A DNA stretch of 22,962 nt, taken from a virus. Position 1 is the first letter of the stretch. Each line of letters opens with the position of its first letter. Made by a program: the position numbers and the translations under genes. The stretch is from IMG/VR virus record IMGVR_UViG_3300021508_000006, positions 1 through 22,962 of that record; one strand, given 5' to 3'. This document shows positions 7,982 to 22,962 of the stretch, in pieces. A model generated the notes under the pieces. The model saw nothing but the letters and a program-made list of their open reading frames with translations, was not told where the DNA came from and ran no database searches.

Positions 7982-9346
7982 TTACGCCAGGCCCGCAAGG
8001 GCGTGGATTCGGATTGCCTCGGCGTCGGTCAACGCCTTCTTGATTACGCAAACAAACTGCACGACGCCTTCGAACGGGTCAACAACGGCTGTTGGAAGCT
8101 CGGCGACCAACGGGCCCTGTGCGAACGCCCCAACCCCGAAGAGGTCCGTTGGCGTGCTGACCTCAAACGTGTCCGCGAGCGTGGCCAGCGAGCCGAGTGT
8201 AGCCACTTGGTTCCCATCTTGGTAGACCCTCACCTCGTCGGCAGCGCGGTCGATGACGGCCACGTGCGTCTGAAGCGTGTTGCGAGCTGCACCGCCACCA
8301 CCGATGTCTTGCTCAGCGCCGCCAGTCGTCCGAAAGCGAAAGCGCGTCTCACCAGTGTCGTTTGTGAAGAGTTGCCAGTATGGGGTGTTCGGGCCGCGCC
8401 ATCCGGCGATGTGCTGGTTGGCACCAAGGTCACCGATGCGAAGCGTGAAGGCCACAATGCTGAAGCTCGTGTCGGCATTCATGACGCCAAGCTCATCAAG
8501 GCGCGCGAAGTCTTTGAACGCGGCGCCACCGCTGAACAGTGTGGCGTGTCCGGCCTTTGGGTACAGCGGCGCCATCTGCACCTCAACATCACCAGTAAAT
8601 TCCAGACTGTTGGTTGGCGGGTCCACGAAGTCTGTGGGGTCCTCGCCGTTGCCTACATTGCTTGCGTCTACCAGGCGGCGGACAGAATCGTGTGGGTACA
8701 TGGCGGCGAGGCCGTGAGCAGGCCGCAACTTCAGCATCATGCTCACGAGGTCGTCTAGCTCAAGGTCGACTGTTCGTGCCCACTCACGATGGATGCCTAC
8801 GTCCTGTGGCTGGATGCACAACGCCATGGTGCGCCAATCAGACATCGTTCTGGTATCGAGGCAGTCCGTGGTGCGTGGCTCAATCATGATGCCGAATCGC
8901 ACCCACGGCGCATCAACAGGAAGGTTGCTCACGCGGAACGTGCCCGCAACATCTTTGGCATGCGCTTGCGGCTCGGTCTCATCATCGAGCTGCACAACGA
9001 GCGTTGGGTTGTTCGCAAGCTCAAGCATCACACGACGTGCAAATGTCTCGCGCAGTGTAGCCACGTTTGCGTAGGCCTCACGGCCTGCGACGTAGTTGGC
9101 CACAGCGTGGCAGTCGAGCACTACCGAAGAGCTGCTCTGCATGATGCGTCGGCCATGTCGGTCAAGCCATTCGTATTGTACGGTCGGGTCGTCGATGATG
9201 ATGGCGGGCGTCTCACTATCAGACAGCGCCATGTTCATCGTGGGTGGTTGGCGACGCACAGTCTTGACGCCTTCGATGCCGAGCAGCACGACGCGCAGGG
9301 CCTCAAGTAGACGCTCACGCGATGATGTTGACCATGCTTGCGACAT
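7982..9346 (-). CDS. tail-terminator-like protein fused to a LamG/ConA-like domain
   Basis: At 454 aa it is far longer than usual tail terminators (about 130-200 aa). Residues about 1-190 (ERLLEALRVVLLGIEGVKTV ... ANVATLRETFARRVMLELAN ... VRFGIMIEPRTT) fit a tail terminator/completion domain by position and pattern. Residues about 265-450 (SFSIVAFTLRIGD ... QHIAGWRG ... YWQLFTNDTGETRFRF ... THVAVIDRAADEVRVYQDGN ... VVQFVCVIKKALTDAEAI) have the beta-sandwich pattern of LamG/concanavalin-A-like domains, which often bind glycans. The fusion would display lectin-like domains at the neck or tail top. Stop and sheath start are 13 bases apart. The N-terminal call is less certain than the C-terminal one. 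Confidence 0.6.
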   Translation of the reverse strand: MSQAWSTSSRERLLEALRVVLLGIEGVKTVRRQPPTMNMALSDSETPAIIIDDPTVQYEWLDRHGRRIMQSSSSVVLDCHAVANYVAGREAYANVATLRETFARRVMLELANNPTLVVQLDDETEPQAHAKDVAGTFRVSNLPVDAPWVRFGIMIEPRTTDCLDTRTMSDWRTMALCIQPQDVGIHREWARTVDLELDDLVSMMLKLRPAHGLAAMYPHDSVRRLVDASNVGNGEDPTDFVDPPTNSLEFTGDVEVQMAPLYPKAGHATLFSGGAAFKDFARLDELGVMNADTSFSIVAFTLRIGDLGANQHIAGWRGPNTPYWQLFTNDTGETRFRFRTTGGAEQDIGGGGAARNTLQTHVAVIDRAADEVRVYQDGNQVATLGSLATLADTFEVSTPTDLFGVGAFAQGPLVAELPTAVVDPFEGVVQFVCVIKKALTDAEAIRIHALAGLA

Positions 9347-10813: not shown

Positions 10814-12415
10814 TCAGAATGGGTACCAGTCGTCATCATCGTCGGCAGCGCTCTCGGCGATGATGGGCTCTTCGCTCCACTCGTCAAAGTTGCCGAAGTC
10901 GTCGTCGACTGTCCAGCCCTGCGGTCTGACGTTTGAGCTGATGGCGTTCTCGAACATGTCGTTGCTCAACTGCCTATCGGTCACATCACGCACATCAACA
11001 CCGGGCTGTGTTTGGCGTGCGAGGTCTATTAGGGCGTCTTTCCACTCCACGCGCTTGTCGCTGAATACCGTGCCATCCTTGTCGATGTACTGCTCAAGAC
11101 GGTCGCCCTGGCGCTTGAACTCGGCGAGGCTCCAACCACCTACTGGTATGCCGCCCTCTTCGTCGGCAAAGCTCGAACCGTGGTGCAAAATCGTGCCTGT
11201 GGGTGCGTGTACCAACCACCAGTGCTGCACATCGTAGATGCCCTGTGCACCATCCAGCGTGGAGAAGATGCCGAAGTTGCCGCGCACATAACCCTTGGCC
11301 TGCTTGATACTGCCGTCGCCTTGGTGGAAACGCAGCTCGTTTGTGCGGCTCCAGCGCGTCTTGTGCTTCCGTGCGCTGGCGGCCTTCGTTGTCGCATGCT
11401 CGCTCTGGATGACTGGCAGTTCGATGCCTCCAAGGTCGAGCCACGTGTCAACATCGCGATAGTCCGGGCCCACAGGCACGTGGCGGCGACGTTGCGTGTA
11501 GGTGGTGATGCTCTCGCGCTCCTCTTCGAAGAAGCCCCGGGCGCTCGTGCCCTCGTCTGGCAACGAGCCACTTGACCCGAGGTAGCGCTCAAGCTGTCCT
11601 GCATGCGCTTCAAGGTCGGCGCGACTAAAGCGGCCCTTGGCAACGACCTCACCAGTTCCCTTGTGAACAAGACGGCCTTCGTGTCCGTCCTGAGTGCGTA
11701 CTACCTCAGCACTCCAGAAGCGCGAGGCGGTGGCGGTAGGGTCGTCGGCTGTCGCGGCCGCGTCAAAGCGCGTGCGAGGCGTGCTGCGCAGGACCGTGTA
11801 ACTACCAGGCGAGCCACCTGCATTGTTGGGCGTGAACAGCACCTGCCGAGCAGGGAACTCTTCGGTGATGTAGTCACCCTGAGGCTCTGTGTTCTGCCAC
11901 AGGTCCATGATGCCGGGTGTCTCATTGAACAGGTCGTCGGTGATAGGGCGGTGCAGCGTGATGACGTCAACACCACCAGCCGCGAACTGCTGCTGTGTGT
12001 CCTGGTAGATAGCTCGCAGGTCATCTTCGTCAAAGGCGAGCTGGTTCGGTGCTGGCTGCACATCGAAGTCGGTGAAGTGCAGACCCTCGACGTCGAACGC
12101 GGTGTGCGCGGCCTGCTGCAGCTCATCACCACGGGCTGTTGCTGGTGACCACCCGCTCACGAGTTCGGCGCGTCTGGCCGTCGCGGCTGCCGGGTCATCC
12201 TGCGCTTCTGCAAGTGGCGGCAACTTACGAGCTTCGGGCTTGTCTTCACCTGTGAGCTCACGCCAGCCATCGGCGTCGAACCACGTCGGGCGGACTGCGC
12301 GCCAGTGGTGGCGACAGCGATACCCGCCAGCGGCCTCCATGGCTGTGCCTCGTCCCGTCTGGTGGTTGTCGAGGTCGTCAATCTGCTCGCGTGTGAGGAT
12401 GCGGCCGCGTGCCAT
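10814..12415 (-). CDS. protein with orphan C-terminal MuF motif and long extension with internal repeat (533 aa)
   Basis: Residues 3-42 (RGRILTREQIDDLDNHQTG ... GGYRCRHHWRAV) are the conserved C-terminal motif of MuF-type minor head proteins, which normally follows the RPFC motif in one chain; here RPFC is in the gene at 12673-14934. The rest is not recognised. Residues 148-200 (VDVITLHRPI ... EEFPARQVLFTPNN) faintly recall ADP-ribosyltransferase-type domains seen after MuF, but I do not see a convincing R-S-E set. Two related segments occur at about 247-279 and 399-443 (LVH..TG ... G.FS/GWS ... QLERYL/RLEQYI). The tail ends in DDDDDWYPF. GAGGT lies 8 bases before the ATG. A virion or injected protein is likely. 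Confidence 0.65.
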   Translation of the reverse strand: MARGRILTREQIDDLDNHQTGRGTAMEAAGGYRCRHHWRAVRPTWFDADGWRELTGEDKPEARKLPPLAEAQDDPAAATARRAELVSGWSPATARGDELQQAAHTAFDVEGLHFTDFDVQPAPNQLAFDEDDLRAIYQDTQQQFAAGGVDVITLHRPITDDLFNETPGIMDLWQNTEPQGDYITEEFPARQVLFTPNNAGGSPGSYTVLRSTPRTRFDAAATADDPTATASRFWSAEVVRTQDGHEGRLVHKGTGEVVAKGRFSRADLEAHAGQLERYLGSSGSLPDEGTSARGFFEEERESITTYTQRRRHVPVGPDYRDVDTWLDLGGIELPVIQSEHATTKAASARKHKTRWSRTNELRFHQGDGSIKQAKGYVRGNFGIFSTLDGAQGIYDVQHWWLVHAPTGTILHHGSSFADEEGGIPVGGWSLAEFKRQGDRLEQYIDKDGTVFSDKRVEWKDALIDLARQTQPGVDVRDVTDRQLSNDMFENAISSNVRPQGWTVDDDFGNFDEWSEEPIIAESAADDDDDWYPF

Positions 12416-12663
12416 CAGGTAACCTCACCGACTTCGAGCACTTCCCAGAACTCGCCGGGGTCCTCTTCGCCAAGCGGCACAAGTTTGGTGCGTGCCGTCC
12501 ACTCCCAGATGATACCGTTGTCACCTTCGATAGGCGTGCTGTGCATCACGACGTTGCGGAAGATGTCGTCCGGGATACCGTCAGGGAATGCTGTGCAAGC
12601 AGCACCTACAGCCGTCTCGCGGTAGTGCTTGCAGGTCAAGCATTGCGGGGTCGTCGTCGTCAT
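12415..12663 (-). CDS. small Cys-rich protein (82-83 aa), found near MuF genes
   Basis: Two adjacent ATGs exist (12666 and 12663); GAGGTG lies only 2 bases before the first and 5 before the second, so I favour 12663. The pattern C8xxC11KHYR...C23xAFPDGIPDDI...H...EGDNG, then EW, matches a small conserved protein often seen just after phage minor head genes. The cysteines and His may bind zinc. Function is unknown to me. It lies between the two genes that carry the separate halves of a MuF domain, and its TGA overlaps the next ATG (TGATG). Confidence 0.7.
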   Translation of the reverse strand: MTTTTPQCLTCKHYRETAVGAACTAFPDGIPDDIFRNVVMHSTPIEGDNGIIWEWTARTKLVPLGEEDPGEFWEVLEVGEVT

Positions 12664-12672
12664 CATCTCACC

Positions 12673-14934
12673 TCAGTCTAGCAAGCCGGTAGCTTGCGCC
12701 AGTTCGGCAGCTATGCGCGCGGTCTTGAACTTCTCAAACGCTGCTTCGGCAAAGGCGACATCGGTGTCTGTCGCGCCCTCGGCCGGGACAAACATATCCC
12801 ACAAGCGCTTGCGCTCGGTCTCAGGGTCTTGCGCCAGAATAGTGCGCGCGAAGCCCATTGCGTCTTCGCGTGCTGACGGCTTGGGTGTTGAGGGTGCCCC
12901 AACATCACCGCGACTGACGCGCTCACGACGAGCGTCAAGGATGACCTGGTACTTCGCATCAGCAGTCGCCTCGAACCTGTCCGCACGCTTGAGTGAAGCA
13001 AGCACTGCTGGCGCCAGCAGGTCGTGCTCACCCTTCACATAGGCCACCATGGCCTCAGCTGCGTACTCTTCTTCCATGCTGGATGCGTACTTGCCAATGA
13101 GCAGACTCCACCCCTGTGGGTAGGTCTTGTTGATAGCCGTGCGATAGTCATCAGCCGTGGCGCTCTTGTGTTCATGGAACCTATGACCAAGCTCGTGCTG
13201 GATGACGCTGGGCGTGGTGCCGCTGATGACAAACCGTTCGTTCCAGTCATCGTCACGGATGAGCATTTCGAGGCGAGCTGCTGCTTCTTCGTTCGCAAAT
13301 CCGCTGTGACGATGCGCGGCAAATACATGTGTGGGTGCGCCAGTGCCAAGGTCACGGCGAAGTGTCGCAACCACTTCAGCAGGTGAGTTCGTGGAGCGCT
13401 GCCGCATTCGGATGTCGCTGAGTTCCTTGTGGGTGCGTATGCGCTTGTCGTCGAACGTTTCCTTTTTGACGAAGAGGCTGTCTGAGGCGTATCCAGCCAC
13501 GGTGTTGCGCGAGCCAGCGCCGCGCACCTTCATGCGGTTGGGCGAGTTGATGTAGTGCTTTTTGTTGAACTCCGCCTGTGTGCCGAAATAGAACATAGGG
13601 CCCATATCGAAACGCTCGTTCATGTCGGACGCTGCGTCTAGCGCGGAGCGCACGCCCTCCATATCCCAGCTGCGCACGATGCGAGCTCGCTCGGTGACGC
13701 CCTCGGATACAGCGAGCGCCATGGCCTGTTTCGATGTGGTGAATGCAGGAAACTGGTCGCCAGTTGATGGGCTCGGCGTGATAGGTGGTTGGGCTGCAGC
13801 TCGTTGTCGCTCTGCTTGTGCGCGCCGCTCTTCGGCCTCACGCTTTTTGCGTTGCGCTTCTTCAGCCTGGCGCTGGCGCTCCTGCTCAACGATGACCTGT
13901 GCTTCAGCTTCAGCAGCGAGGCGTTGTCGCTCGGCTTCCTCTTGACGCTTGCGCTCGGCTTCGCGGGTGGAAAGTGCGGCCTCGTCGCGCTTGCGGCGCT
14001 CTTCGTCAATGCGTGCCTGCTCGGCGGCCTCGGCGGCCCTCTGCGCGTCTTCACGTCGTTGCTCAGCTTCGGCCTCAGCCTTTGCGCGTTCGTCTGACGC
14101 GGCCTGCTGGGCGGCTCTCTCAGCAGCAACGGCTTCGCGCTCGGCTTGCTTTGCTTGCTGCTCGGCTTCGCGCTCAGGCGGTAGGGCCTCGGACGGGCCC
14201 ACCAACAGCGCGGCACAGAACGGGCGTGTGATGGCGTCACGTGGCCCGAAGTACTGGAAATGTTCGTAGCCAAGGCTTGCGGCTTTCTGGTCGTGGATGC
14301 TGCGCGAGTACTGCATGGTGGCGTCGTCGAACACGAACTTGGCACGTGCGGTGGTGGAGTTCGTGAGCTGGGCGAGTTCGGCCGTGAGGTCTGTGGCCCG
14401 TCGTCGACCAAGCACGCCTCGCGTCACGACGTCAGCAACCCTGCGGCGGTGGTCGTCGGTAAGGCTGAAGAAGCGGGCGGCCATGCCGCTGCCTGGTTGG
14501 CGCTCATCAGGCCACAGGCCAATGAGTTGGTCGATGGTTGCCAGTTCGGAATTCGACCAGTCGGCCCGTAGCCGTGAGGCCTGACGGCCATGGTCTGCGG
14601 ATTCACCGAGTTCGAAGTGGTCACGTATCTGGCTACGCACTGTGGTCAGGCGGCCTTGCCACTCTCCCCAGATGCGCTTGAACGGGTCGACGTTGCTGAT
14701 GGCACGGGCACGGGCTTCGGGGATTGCACGGCGAATGACACCACGGTCGCTGACGTACCGGCCATTCGGGTCGGTCTCGAACGGCTCAAGGATGTCGGTG
14801 GCAACACCAGCAATCGCCTGGCTGTACTGCGTCGACAACAAGCGAACGGTGTCGTCTATGAAGTCGTCCTGACGTGCCGTGATTGCGGCGACGTTGCTCG
14901 CGAGTAGTTCGCGCTCTCGGTCGGTCAGTGGCAT
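12673..14934 (-). CDS. MuF-type minor head protein (N-terminal part) fused to coiled coil and HExxH metallopeptidase-like domain
   Basis: I chose ATG 14934; the GTG at 14985 lies inside the terminator hairpin. The product is 753 aa. Residues about 1-245 resemble MuF/SPP1 gp7 minor head proteins, ending in SLGYEHFQYFGPRDAITRPF followed by C240. Where homologs continue with the T-x-EEI...GGYxCRH motif, this protein switches to a highly charged Glu/Gln/Arg/Ala coiled coil (about 250-380). The C-terminal domain (about 395-753) has H580ELGH584 and a downstream EEEYAAEAMVAY (E621-E627 region), the layout of gluzincin zinc peptidases (HExxH plus a later Glu ligand). MuF proteins attach near the portal and may carry effector domains delivered with DNA. 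The protease role and its target (host, capsid or neck protein) are inferred. Confidence 0.75.
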   Translation of the reverse strand: MPLTDRERELLASNVAAITARQDDFIDDTVRLLSTQYSQAIAGVATDILEPFETDPNGRYVSDRGVIRRAIPEARARAISNVDPFKRIWGEWQGRLTTVRSQIRDHFELGESADHGRQASRLRADWSNSELATIDQLIGLWPDERQPGSGMAARFFSLTDDHRRRVADVVTRGVLGRRRATDLTAELAQLTNSTTARAKFVFDDATMQYSRSIHDQKAASLGYEHFQYFGPRDAITRPFCAALLVGPSEALPPEREAEQQAKQAEREAVAAERAAQQAASDERAKAEAEAEQRREDAQRAAEAAEQARIDEERRKRDEAALSTREAERKRQEEAERQRLAAEAEAQVIVEQERQRQAEEAQRKKREAEERRAQAERQRAAAQPPITPSPSTGDQFPAFTTSKQAMALAVSEGVTERARIVRSWDMEGVRSALDAASDMNERFDMGPMFYFGTQAEFNKKHYINSPNRMKVRGAGSRNTVAGYASDSLFVKKETFDDKRIRTHKELSDIRMRQRSTNSPAEVVATLRRDLGTGAPTHVFAAHRHSGFANEEAAARLEMLIRDDDWNERFVISGTTPSVIQHELGHRFHEHKSATADDYRTAINKTYPQGWSLLIGKYASSMEEEYAAEAMVAYVKGEHDLLAPAVLASLKRADRFEATADAKYQVILDARRERVSRGDVGAPSTPKPSAREDAMGFARTILAQDPETERKRLWDMFVPAEGATDTDVAFAEAAFEKFKTARIAAELAQATGLLD

Positions 14935-14953
14935 CGTCAGCGCTCTCAGAAGT

Positions 14954-14990
14954 AAAAAGGCCCGCGAGCACGATAACGCACCCACGGGCC
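14954..14990 (-). terminator. strong rho-independent terminator closing the capsid unit
   Basis: On the minus strand the arms GGCCCGTGGGTGCG (14990-14977) and CGTGCTCGCGGGCC (14972-14959) pair along 14 positions (with G-U wobbles) around a 4-base TTAT loop, followed at once by TTTTT (14958-14954). It lies 29 bases after the stop of the 106-aa gene and about 20 bases before the MuF start, so the MuF gene has no room for its own promoter and probably depends on readthrough. Confidence 0.9.
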
Positions 14991-21991: not shown

Positions 21992-22216
21992 CTACCTCCG
22001 CCACAGCCGCACCAAGTTGTGGTCCGCTTTCACAAGCTCGTTGTGGCCCGTCATGGTCGGGCGCTGCCTTATCCACAGGCCGCAGTCATCGCACCACGTG
22101 ATTCGCTGGAAGCGCAAGCTTGGTGGTTCTTCGGCTAGCGCGGCTGTGCTGTACCCAACCGTGTTCACGACCCGCACTACGCGCTGGCACCTCCAACAGT
22201 GGTTGCGGGGCGTCAT
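21992..22216 (-). CDS. small zinc-ribbon-like protein (74 aa)
   Basis: The start at 22216 overlaps the upstream stop (ATGA); a GTG two codons earlier is possible but less likely. The protein has two CxxC pairs, C7xxC10 (CWRC) and C42xxC45 (CDDC), about 30 residues apart, the usual spacing of a four-cysteine zinc ribbon. The rest is basic and ends in an Arg-rich tail. Such small zinc ribbons are frequent in phage early and packaging regions and may bind nucleic acid or protein, but nothing here fixes a function. Confidence 0.6.
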   Translation of the reverse strand: MTPRNHCWRCQRVVRVVNTVGYSTAALAEEPPSLRFQRITWCDDCGLWIRQRPTMTGHNELVKADHNLVRLWRR

Positions 22217-22413
22217 GGCCACTCACCAAAGAGAGTGCGGTGCCACAGCACCCCATTATGCTTGGACCATAGCCACTCCCAAACCTCACCGGCCCGGCCA
22301 GTGAACACGACGTCTTCGAGGTCGTTGAGGATGTCCTTGGTGTCGACGCGTTGCCCCGGCCGGGTTGTGTAGCCAAGGTCTGCCAACGTATCATTGAGTG
22401 TGGGCATGCTCAT
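22213..22413 (-). CDS. small hypothetical protein (66 aa)
   Basis: I do not recognise this protein. A longer in-frame start exists at 22494, but the ATG at 22413 overlaps the upstream stop as ATGA, the arrangement used throughout this window, so I chose it. The protein is acidic in the middle (TLNDTLADLGY, then DTKDILNDLEDV) and Trp-rich near the C-terminus (EVWEWLWSK). It ends in another ATGA overlap with the next gene, so the three genes 22962-21992 are probably translated as a coupled set. No signal peptide, membrane segment or metal-binding motif is visible. Confidence 0.6.
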   Translation of the reverse strand: MSMPTLNDTLADLGYTTRPGQRVDTKDILNDLEDVVFTGRAGEVWEWLWSKHNGVLWHRTLFGEWP

Positions 22414-22962
22414 TTCAGCCACCCTTGCCCAGGAAGAACATTCAGCAGCTGAATCGGCCCTGAGGTGGGGCCGAAGTCGTCGTCGCCAATCCATGCTGCG
22501 TCATCAGCCGCCTGACGTACATCGCGCGTCAGGTTGTAGCGGTGCTTCATCATGATGACGTCGCCGATGTTCTGGCCTGCAGGTCCGCAGAAGTGTCTGG
22601 CGATGGACATGGCCATCATGGCGACGTCGGCCAACTCTTCGACCACACGGCCTGCGATGGGCTTGCCTGTGCCATTGCACTTCTGGCAATCGTCAGAAAC
22701 ACCACAGCCATCATTGCTACAGTCCTTGTGGCAGTACCCATGTTCGCGTCTATGCGTTGAGTATCCATCGCCATCGCACAAAGAGCAGTAGATATCGTAG
22801 TCACCGTCGCGGGCGGCCTCGAACACCTCGCTGACCTCCGAGTGCAGGTGCGCGAGGTGGTTGATTAGCTCGCTGAAGGTGCGTGGCGAGCGTCCTGTGG
22901 TGCGGCATCTATCGCACCCAACGCCCTCGCAGTGACGGCACACGTAGAAGCCGTGGTTGCGA
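22410..22962 (-). CDS. MazG-like NTP pyrophosphohydrolase with inserted Cys-rich zinc motifs (5' end outside window)
   Basis: Open to the right window edge, so the N-terminus is probably missing; a GTG at 22943 is in frame, but coding-like sequence (HGFYVCRHC) continues upstream. Counting from that GTG, E36xxE39 (EVSE) and E103xxD106 (ELAD) match the two metal-binding motifs of all-alpha MazG-type nucleotide pyrophosphohydrolases, which hydrolyse (d)NTPs to NMP and pyrophosphate using Mg2+. In the family these motifs are usually about 12-28 residues apart; here the gap is about 64. The extra residues hold C53xxC56xGxG, C71/C75, C80 and C86xxC89xGxG, like DnaJ zinc modules, and another such motif (C2xxC5xGxG, C10xxC13) lies N-terminal. 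Its stop overlaps the next start (ATGA). Family call from motifs only; nucleotide-pool control is inference. Confidence 0.6.
   Translation of the reverse strand, partial: RNHGFYVCRHCEGVGCDRCRTTGRSPRTFSELINHLAHLHSEVSEVFEAARDGDYDIYCSLCDGDGYSTHRREHGYCHKDCSNDGCGVSDDCQKCNGTGKPIAGRVVEELADVAMMAMSIARHFCGPAGQNIGDVIMMKHRYNLTRDVRQAADDAAWIGDDDFGPTSGPIQLLNVLPGQGWLK

Follow-up and report, generated by a model that had tools for sequence, protein, structure and literature searches.

A predicted phage MazG-type NTP pyrophosphohydrolase with cysteine knuckle modules before and between its catalytic motifs

The window analysed here is the entire IMG/VR record IMGVR_UViG_3300021508_000006 (22,962 bp), which belongs to a contractile-tailed phage with its structural genes on the minus strand. 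Its first gene is predicted to encode a MazG-type, all-alpha NTP pyrophosphohydrolase that contains two cysteine modules of paired CxxC(xGxG) knuckles, the first preceding the ExxE motif and the second lying between ExxE and ExxD. Only two phages were found to have both modules: that of the window and the one encoding the relative L013. The explanation that we consider probable is that of an active phage dNTP pyrophosphohydrolase carrying two single-zinc, anti-TRAP-like knuckle modules, which would stabilise or dock the enzyme, and having an altered base specificity. Taken singly, the MazG fold, the MazG genes of phages, and modules of the CxxCxGxG type are already known; what is new is their combination, and no description of zinc modules in MazG was found in the literature searched, the coverage of which was incomplete. 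The preliminary description of the gene product as a MazG-like enzyme with DnaJ-type zinc motifs is supported by the family match, the motif residues, the homologues, and the models. The features used in the analysis, with residues numbered along the open frame, are the following.

22410..22961, minus strand: MazG-type NTP pyrophosphohydrolase gene, 183 aa plus stop, 5' end cut by the contig end (open reading frame, translation, and phrog_3301 match)
22893..22940, minus strand: loop-1 cysteine module C8-G23, CRHCEGVG-CDRCRTTG, upstream of ExxE (aligned with the loop-1 CxxCxGxG pairs of L013 and L167)
22827..22838, minus strand: catalytic motif I, E42-x-x-E45, in HSEVSE (E42 and E45 identical in 58/58 relatives)
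22665..22787, minus strand: loop-2 cysteine-rich insert C59-G99, CSLCDGDG ... CHKDC ... GC ... CQKCNGTG (aligned with the L013 loop-2 pair; loop lengths of the relatives)
22626..22637, minus strand: catalytic motif II, E109-x-x-D112, EELAD (E109 and D112 identical in 58/58 relatives)
22605..22619, minus strand: changed base-pocket positions M115, M116, and S119, which are I, R, and D in the family (from the alignment; equivalent to MazZ I56, L57, and D60)
22524..22547, minus strand: phosphate-side residues K139-x3-N143-x2-R146 (identical in 58/58 relatives; equivalent to MazZ K76, N80, and R83)
22413..22523, minus strand: C-terminal tail, residues 147-183, which replaces the short RPYRHGGK end of the family (from the alignment; low model confidence)
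22213..22413, minus strand: next open reading frame, MSMPTLND..., overlapping the MazG stop by ATGA (from the sequence)

The open frame begins at the contig end (22961), and its stop is at 22410. The visible start is not the real one: since the homologue L013 has a complete N-terminus, helix 1 of the window protein is predicted to lie beyond the contig end and about 22-25 N-terminal residues to be missing. At the other end of the gene, the MazG stop overlaps the next start as ATGA, and therefore the long C-terminal tail is likely real; a family profile search gave no match for the overlapping frame. The earlier numbering, counted from an internal GTG, was correct, with its ExxE (36-39) and ExxD (103-106) corresponding to E42/E45 and E109/D112 of the open frame, and the separation of 64 residues between the two motifs also holds there. 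No close relatives of the window MazG were found in viral contigs by single-sequence search, and no match was found among plasmids. Likewise, the terminase of the window phage has no close relative in viral contigs, the listed known phages matching it at no more than 34% identity, and therefore the missing N-terminus could not be supplied by way of a near phage relative.

Membership of the MazG family is indicated by the phrog_3301 (pyrophosphatase) profile, which matches the window protein at E 5.3e-9 with the insert present, and matches its relatives L013 and L167 at 1.2e-27 and 4.4e-28, respectively. Pfam MazG scores the window protein at 18.2 bits against a cut-off of 22, and then only when the insert is removed. 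Among PDB structures, a profile of the family retrieves those of DCTPP1, MazZ, and other MazG proteins. The phage MazGs of PHROG 3301, such as those of the Mycobacterium phages Indlulamithi and Madruga, the Gordonia phage Niagara/Katyusha group, and Phage nd12, belong to the same family and share with the window protein the ExxE/ExxD motifs, the KxxxNxxR motif, and the position of the variable loops. Conservation was counted in an alignment (A6) of the window protein with 58 viral relatives, in which H40, S44, and R51, like the motif residues listed above, match all 58.

MazZ of cyanophage S-2L is guanine-specific, acts in the 2-aminoadenine pathway, and has its gene between purZ and datZ. The metal and phosphate residues compared in this (d)GTP-specific enzyme (PDB 7ODY) map one to one onto the window protein, where E42, E45, E109, and D112 correspond to the metal ligands E35, E38, E50, and D53. 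As all metal- and phosphate-binding residues are kept, the predicted enzyme looks competent. In the mechanism that we propose, (d)NTP would be split into (d)NMP and pyrophosphate with the help of divalent ions bound by E42, E45, E109, and D112, while K139, N143, and R146 would contact the phosphates.

The predicted structures were considered for both L013 and the window protein. The helices of the L013 model (11-24, 65-84, 123-141, and 146-158) are predicted with high confidence to form a MazG fold: the mean pLDDT is 76.7, and the catalytic helices exceed 90, with block means of up to 96. In VIA-align, all matches of this model at Z 5-7.9 are members of the MazG/HisE superfamily, unrelated rows reaching at most 3.2, and in Foldseek, human and mouse DCTPP1 (RS21-C6, a dCTP pyrophosphatase) rank first, albeit with weak E-values. 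This best Foldseek match has the same bundle and motifs; it is a cellular enzyme without such cysteine modules. The model of the window protein, which is missing helix 1, has a mean pLDDT of 68.7, with the remaining three helices at high confidence and the inserts near 50. Its best matches are MazG structures, with Z up to 6.3, and an unrelated helical chain comes close at 5.3, so that this model is only suggestive of a MazG bundle. A failure of the EVSE and EELAD segments to come together in such a bundle, the outcome that would have counted against the preliminary description, was thus not seen.

The window protein has twelve cysteines, at positions 8, 11, 16, 19, 59, 62, 77, 81, 86, 92, 95, and 125. 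The three clusters first described, CRHCEGVG, CSLCDGDG, and CQKCNGTG, are present; a fourth knuckle, CDRCRTTG, had been overlooked, and the first cluster lies before ExxE, in a loop of its own. This second loop-1 knuckle is without one of the glycines, and only four residues stand between the two CxxC. In loop 2, C77, H78, C81, and C86 could hold a second zinc. The modules are acidic or neutral in charge rather than strongly basic, and the GC3 of the insert is 0.55, against 0.72-0.82 in the rest. Three CxxCxGxG motifs were obtained in none of 100,000 shuffles of the window protein, and chance is also an inadequate source for them because the same motifs stand at equivalent places in the independent phage protein L013.

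L013 (IMGVR_UViG_3300041583_000209) is a complete protein of 168 aa, found by alignment-based scans, with one CxxCxGxG pair upstream of ExxE and another between ExxE and ExxD, in the arrangement of the window protein. A wider scan, from which 80 relatives were kept, yielded L167, which has the loop-1 pair and a loop 2 without cysteine. Complete CxxCxGxG pairs occur in both loops of L013 and in loop 1 of L167, the window protein nearly fits the two-knuckle pattern, and the loop-1 cysteines are invariant across the three proteins. Because L167 has the first module only, the two modules are separable, and each knuckle pair could complete one zinc site alone. Against the Pfam profiles, L013 falls marginally below the thresholds of DnaJ_CXXCXGXG (32.6 bits in two stretches, cut-off 32.7) and Anti-TRAP (30.1 bits, cut-off 32); Pfam DnaJ scores the window protein at 7.9 bits.

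Pattern searches for further members returned little beyond L013. The pattern E..E..E-x10-CxxCxGxG was found at six loci in viral contigs, the contig of L013 holding the sole MazG, and a CxxCxGxG followed by ELAD at the spacing of the window gave no matches. For the E..E..E pattern in genome contigs, the translated ones among the matches listed are DnaJ or unrelated proteins. The three zinc-loop proteins had no counterpart in 396 + 291 whole genomes of two phyla, a result of little weight as the phyla were picked irrespective of host.

The CxxCxGxG knuckles are shared with the cysteine-rich domain of DnaJ, where four repeats form one contiguous two-zinc domain, while in the window protein and L013 two pairs are split by the catalytic helix alpha-2. 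No Pfam match to a J domain or a DnaJ C-terminal domain was found in either protein, and whereas DnaJ has J and client-binding domains, the missing N-terminus of the window protein would be only about 22-25 aa if it resembles that of L013. Anti-TRAP (RtpA/YczA) likewise has a module of two CxxCxGxG knuckles; it is, however, a stand-alone protein of 53 residues that binds TRAP and is not inserted in an enzyme. Its assembly and function require zinc (PMC2896485). In MazZ, a short exposed turn takes the place of the insert and there is no zinc module. None of the PHROG 3301 phage MazGs examined has the CxxCxGxG pair, while Phage nd12 has cysteines in loop 2 as well.

The length of loop 2 varies widely within the family. 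Between the third Glu and ExxD, 66 family sequences have 12-60 residues (median 26), so that the 12-28 residues initially given as usual are too narrow a range. Fifteen sequences have at least four cysteines in this loop, with CxxCxGxG in the window protein and L013 only. The other thirteen (L014, L020, L022, L024, L025, L029, L177, L178, L186, L189, L205, L222, and L231) have four to five loop-2 cysteines and no CxxCxGxG. A tree was built from 101 core columns with the inserts left out; it has few supported forks, and the branch of the window protein is very long (2.63). A single clade of the window protein, L013, and these thirteen sequences was rejected on this core tree (AU p 4.6e-5), and therefore cysteine-rich loops probably arose more than once, the loop of the thirteen looking like an independent gain. 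A clade of the window protein and L013, with or without L167, was neither rejected nor shown by the same columns. The crystal structure of MazZ has, in the place of loop 2, a flexible turn (D43-H46) that is exposed to solvent (PMC8342488). Because of this, and because many relatives carry long unrelated inserts there, the loop-2 site can be taken as a permissive surface site. Consequently, the idea of a module inserted into the active-site loop stands as far as the sequence is concerned, where the insert joins two catalytic helices, but by analogy with MazZ the insert most likely projects from the surface.

The base pocket is where the window protein departs from its family. Among the 58 relatives, the positions of M115, M116, and S119 are occupied by I in 55, R in 58, and D in 57, respectively, and both L013 and L167 follow the family. 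The equivalent MazZ residues I56, L57, and D60 line or read the base (PMC8342488), and the guanine-reading D60 and I56 are absent, their positions being S119 and M115 in the window protein. The conserved C-terminal HG, with H150 in 58/58 and G151 in 56/58 relatives, is also replaced, and the tail amounts to 37 residues. These three pocket changes and the loss of HG belong to the window protein alone, and the changed pocket and the longer tail also set it apart from the PHROG 3301 phage MazGs named above. Since the pocket is altered, the substrate preference of the window protein probably differs from that of its relatives, and altered specificity seems the simplest reading of the changes.

In our proposal, a short module of paired CxxC(xGxG) knuckles would have been added to each of the loops flanking the catalytic helix alpha-2, and each module probably binds one zinc, like half of the DnaJ cysteine-rich domain or a single anti-TRAP module. 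The modules would project from the bundle, and their most likely role would be that of rigid clips, keeping the long loops and the oligomer stable, docking the enzyme to a protein or nucleic acid partner in the DNA-metabolism machinery of the phage, or both. The results show that the protein belongs to the family, that its motifs are conserved, that the modules occupy two positions and recur independently, and, as a predicted model, that the complete relative L013 has the MazG fold. For the window protein we infer zinc binding, activity, the surface position of the modules, and the altered specificity; the stabilising or docking role is the least certain step and is offered as the most economical guess.

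Several other explanations were weighed against this one. It is doubtful that a split DnaJ-like zinc module, with one half in each loop flanking the catalytic helix, gates the active site or recruits a partner while a remodelled pocket recognises an unusual nucleotide. As to the preliminary idea that the zinc module could sense or bind nucleic acid or a special nucleotide, the residues that hint at unusual substrate choice sit in the base pocket (M115, M116, S119) and not in that module. Binding of nucleic acid by the modules, by which the enzyme would be held on DNA or RNA close to the replication fork or the packaging motor, comes near to this idea and is unlikely in our estimation. It would suit the position of L013 within a DNA replication and recombination cluster, and the CxxCxGxG modules of L013 give matches to phage families as well, among them the antiterminator Q-like phrog_127 (E 6e-4), but no significant match to a DNA-binding domain was obtained, the charge of the window modules is acidic or neutral, and CxxCxGxG modules, as in anti-TRAP, also serve as plain protein-protein modules. 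The replacement of R116, D119, H150, and G151 and the very long branch of 2.63 are features that a pseudoenzyme might have, one in which base recognition was lost and the fold only scaffolds the zinc modules, for example for binding a partner as anti-TRAP does. We regard this as rather unlikely: the retention of all metal- and phosphate-binding residues would be unexpected under catalytic decay, and the reading frame is intact, with its ATGA overlap with the next gene.

A housecleaning role on oxidised nucleotides is described for bacterial MazG enzymes (PMC3855555). This role and the presence of cysteine pairs next to the catalytic helices in both loops would agree with redox switches, in which oxidation of CxxC releases zinc and alters the activity on damaged nucleotides during oxidative stress; with CxxCxGxG glycines that are typical of structural zinc sites, such switches seem quite improbable. 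Lastly, the gene touches the contig end and its insert has a lower GC3 than its surroundings, as might follow from an assembly error or a chance frame fusing a MazG fragment to unrelated cysteine-rich sequence. An artefact is very improbable given that L013, on a different contig and in a complete frame, shows both modules at matching positions, and that L167 has the loop-1 module; for the double-module architecture it is refuted by L013.

These findings suggest that phages have, more than once, used both loops of the compact MazG bundle as places for inserting small metal-binding modules: CxxCxGxG pairs in the rare group of the window protein and L013, and in other phages a cysteine-rich loop 2 of a different kind. 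Should the modules steer localisation or specificity, they would account for the retargeting of a common nucleotide-cleaning enzyme by phages. With its altered base pocket, the window protein is a concrete candidate for acting on an unusual substrate.

The genomic surroundings are informative mainly in the relatives. On the L013 contig, the MazG gene is accompanied by genes for an AAA_24 ATPase, an SSB-like protein, a Cas4-type exonuclease, and a Holliday junction resolvase; that of L167 is preceded by two DNA methyltransferases, and in other phages the gene adjoins RusA resolvases, a nucleoside deoxyribosyltransferase, ribonucleotide reductase, or methylases. The window shows no more than the terminase side of the gene, where none of the visible neighbours is a replication gene, and the functional context is therefore taken from L013 and the relatives. 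The established expectation for the role of MazG is dNTP supply during phage DNA synthesis. For the MazG of cyanophage S-PM2, dGTP and dCTP are the preferred substrates, and (p)ppGpp is not hydrolysed (PMC6850273).

Further observations concern other genes of the window, all on the minus strand. Two genes downstream of MazG, a frame of 76 aa (21992-22222) has the CxxC pairs CWRC and CDDC and is possibly a small zinc ribbon. In the 770-aa frame at 12673-14985, the resemblance to head morphogenesis proteins ends after GPRDAITRPFCAAL and is followed by a coiled coil and a segment with HExxH (VIQHELGHRFHEHK), and the next large frame (10814-12415) starts with GRILTREQIDDLDNHQTGRGTAMEAAGGYRCRHHW, a segment that looks like the missing end of the same domain. 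The region 10814-14985, with only weak head-morphogenesis and tape-measure matches, may be a MuF-type gene split by an insertion. Between the two halves lies a cysteine-containing frame of 83 aa (12415-12666) that matches phrog_33375, a family of unknown function, at E 7e-9. In the structural region, the product of the frame at 7982-9346 has a C-terminal concanavalin A-like lectin domain (Pfam Laminin_G_3, E 6.7e-7).
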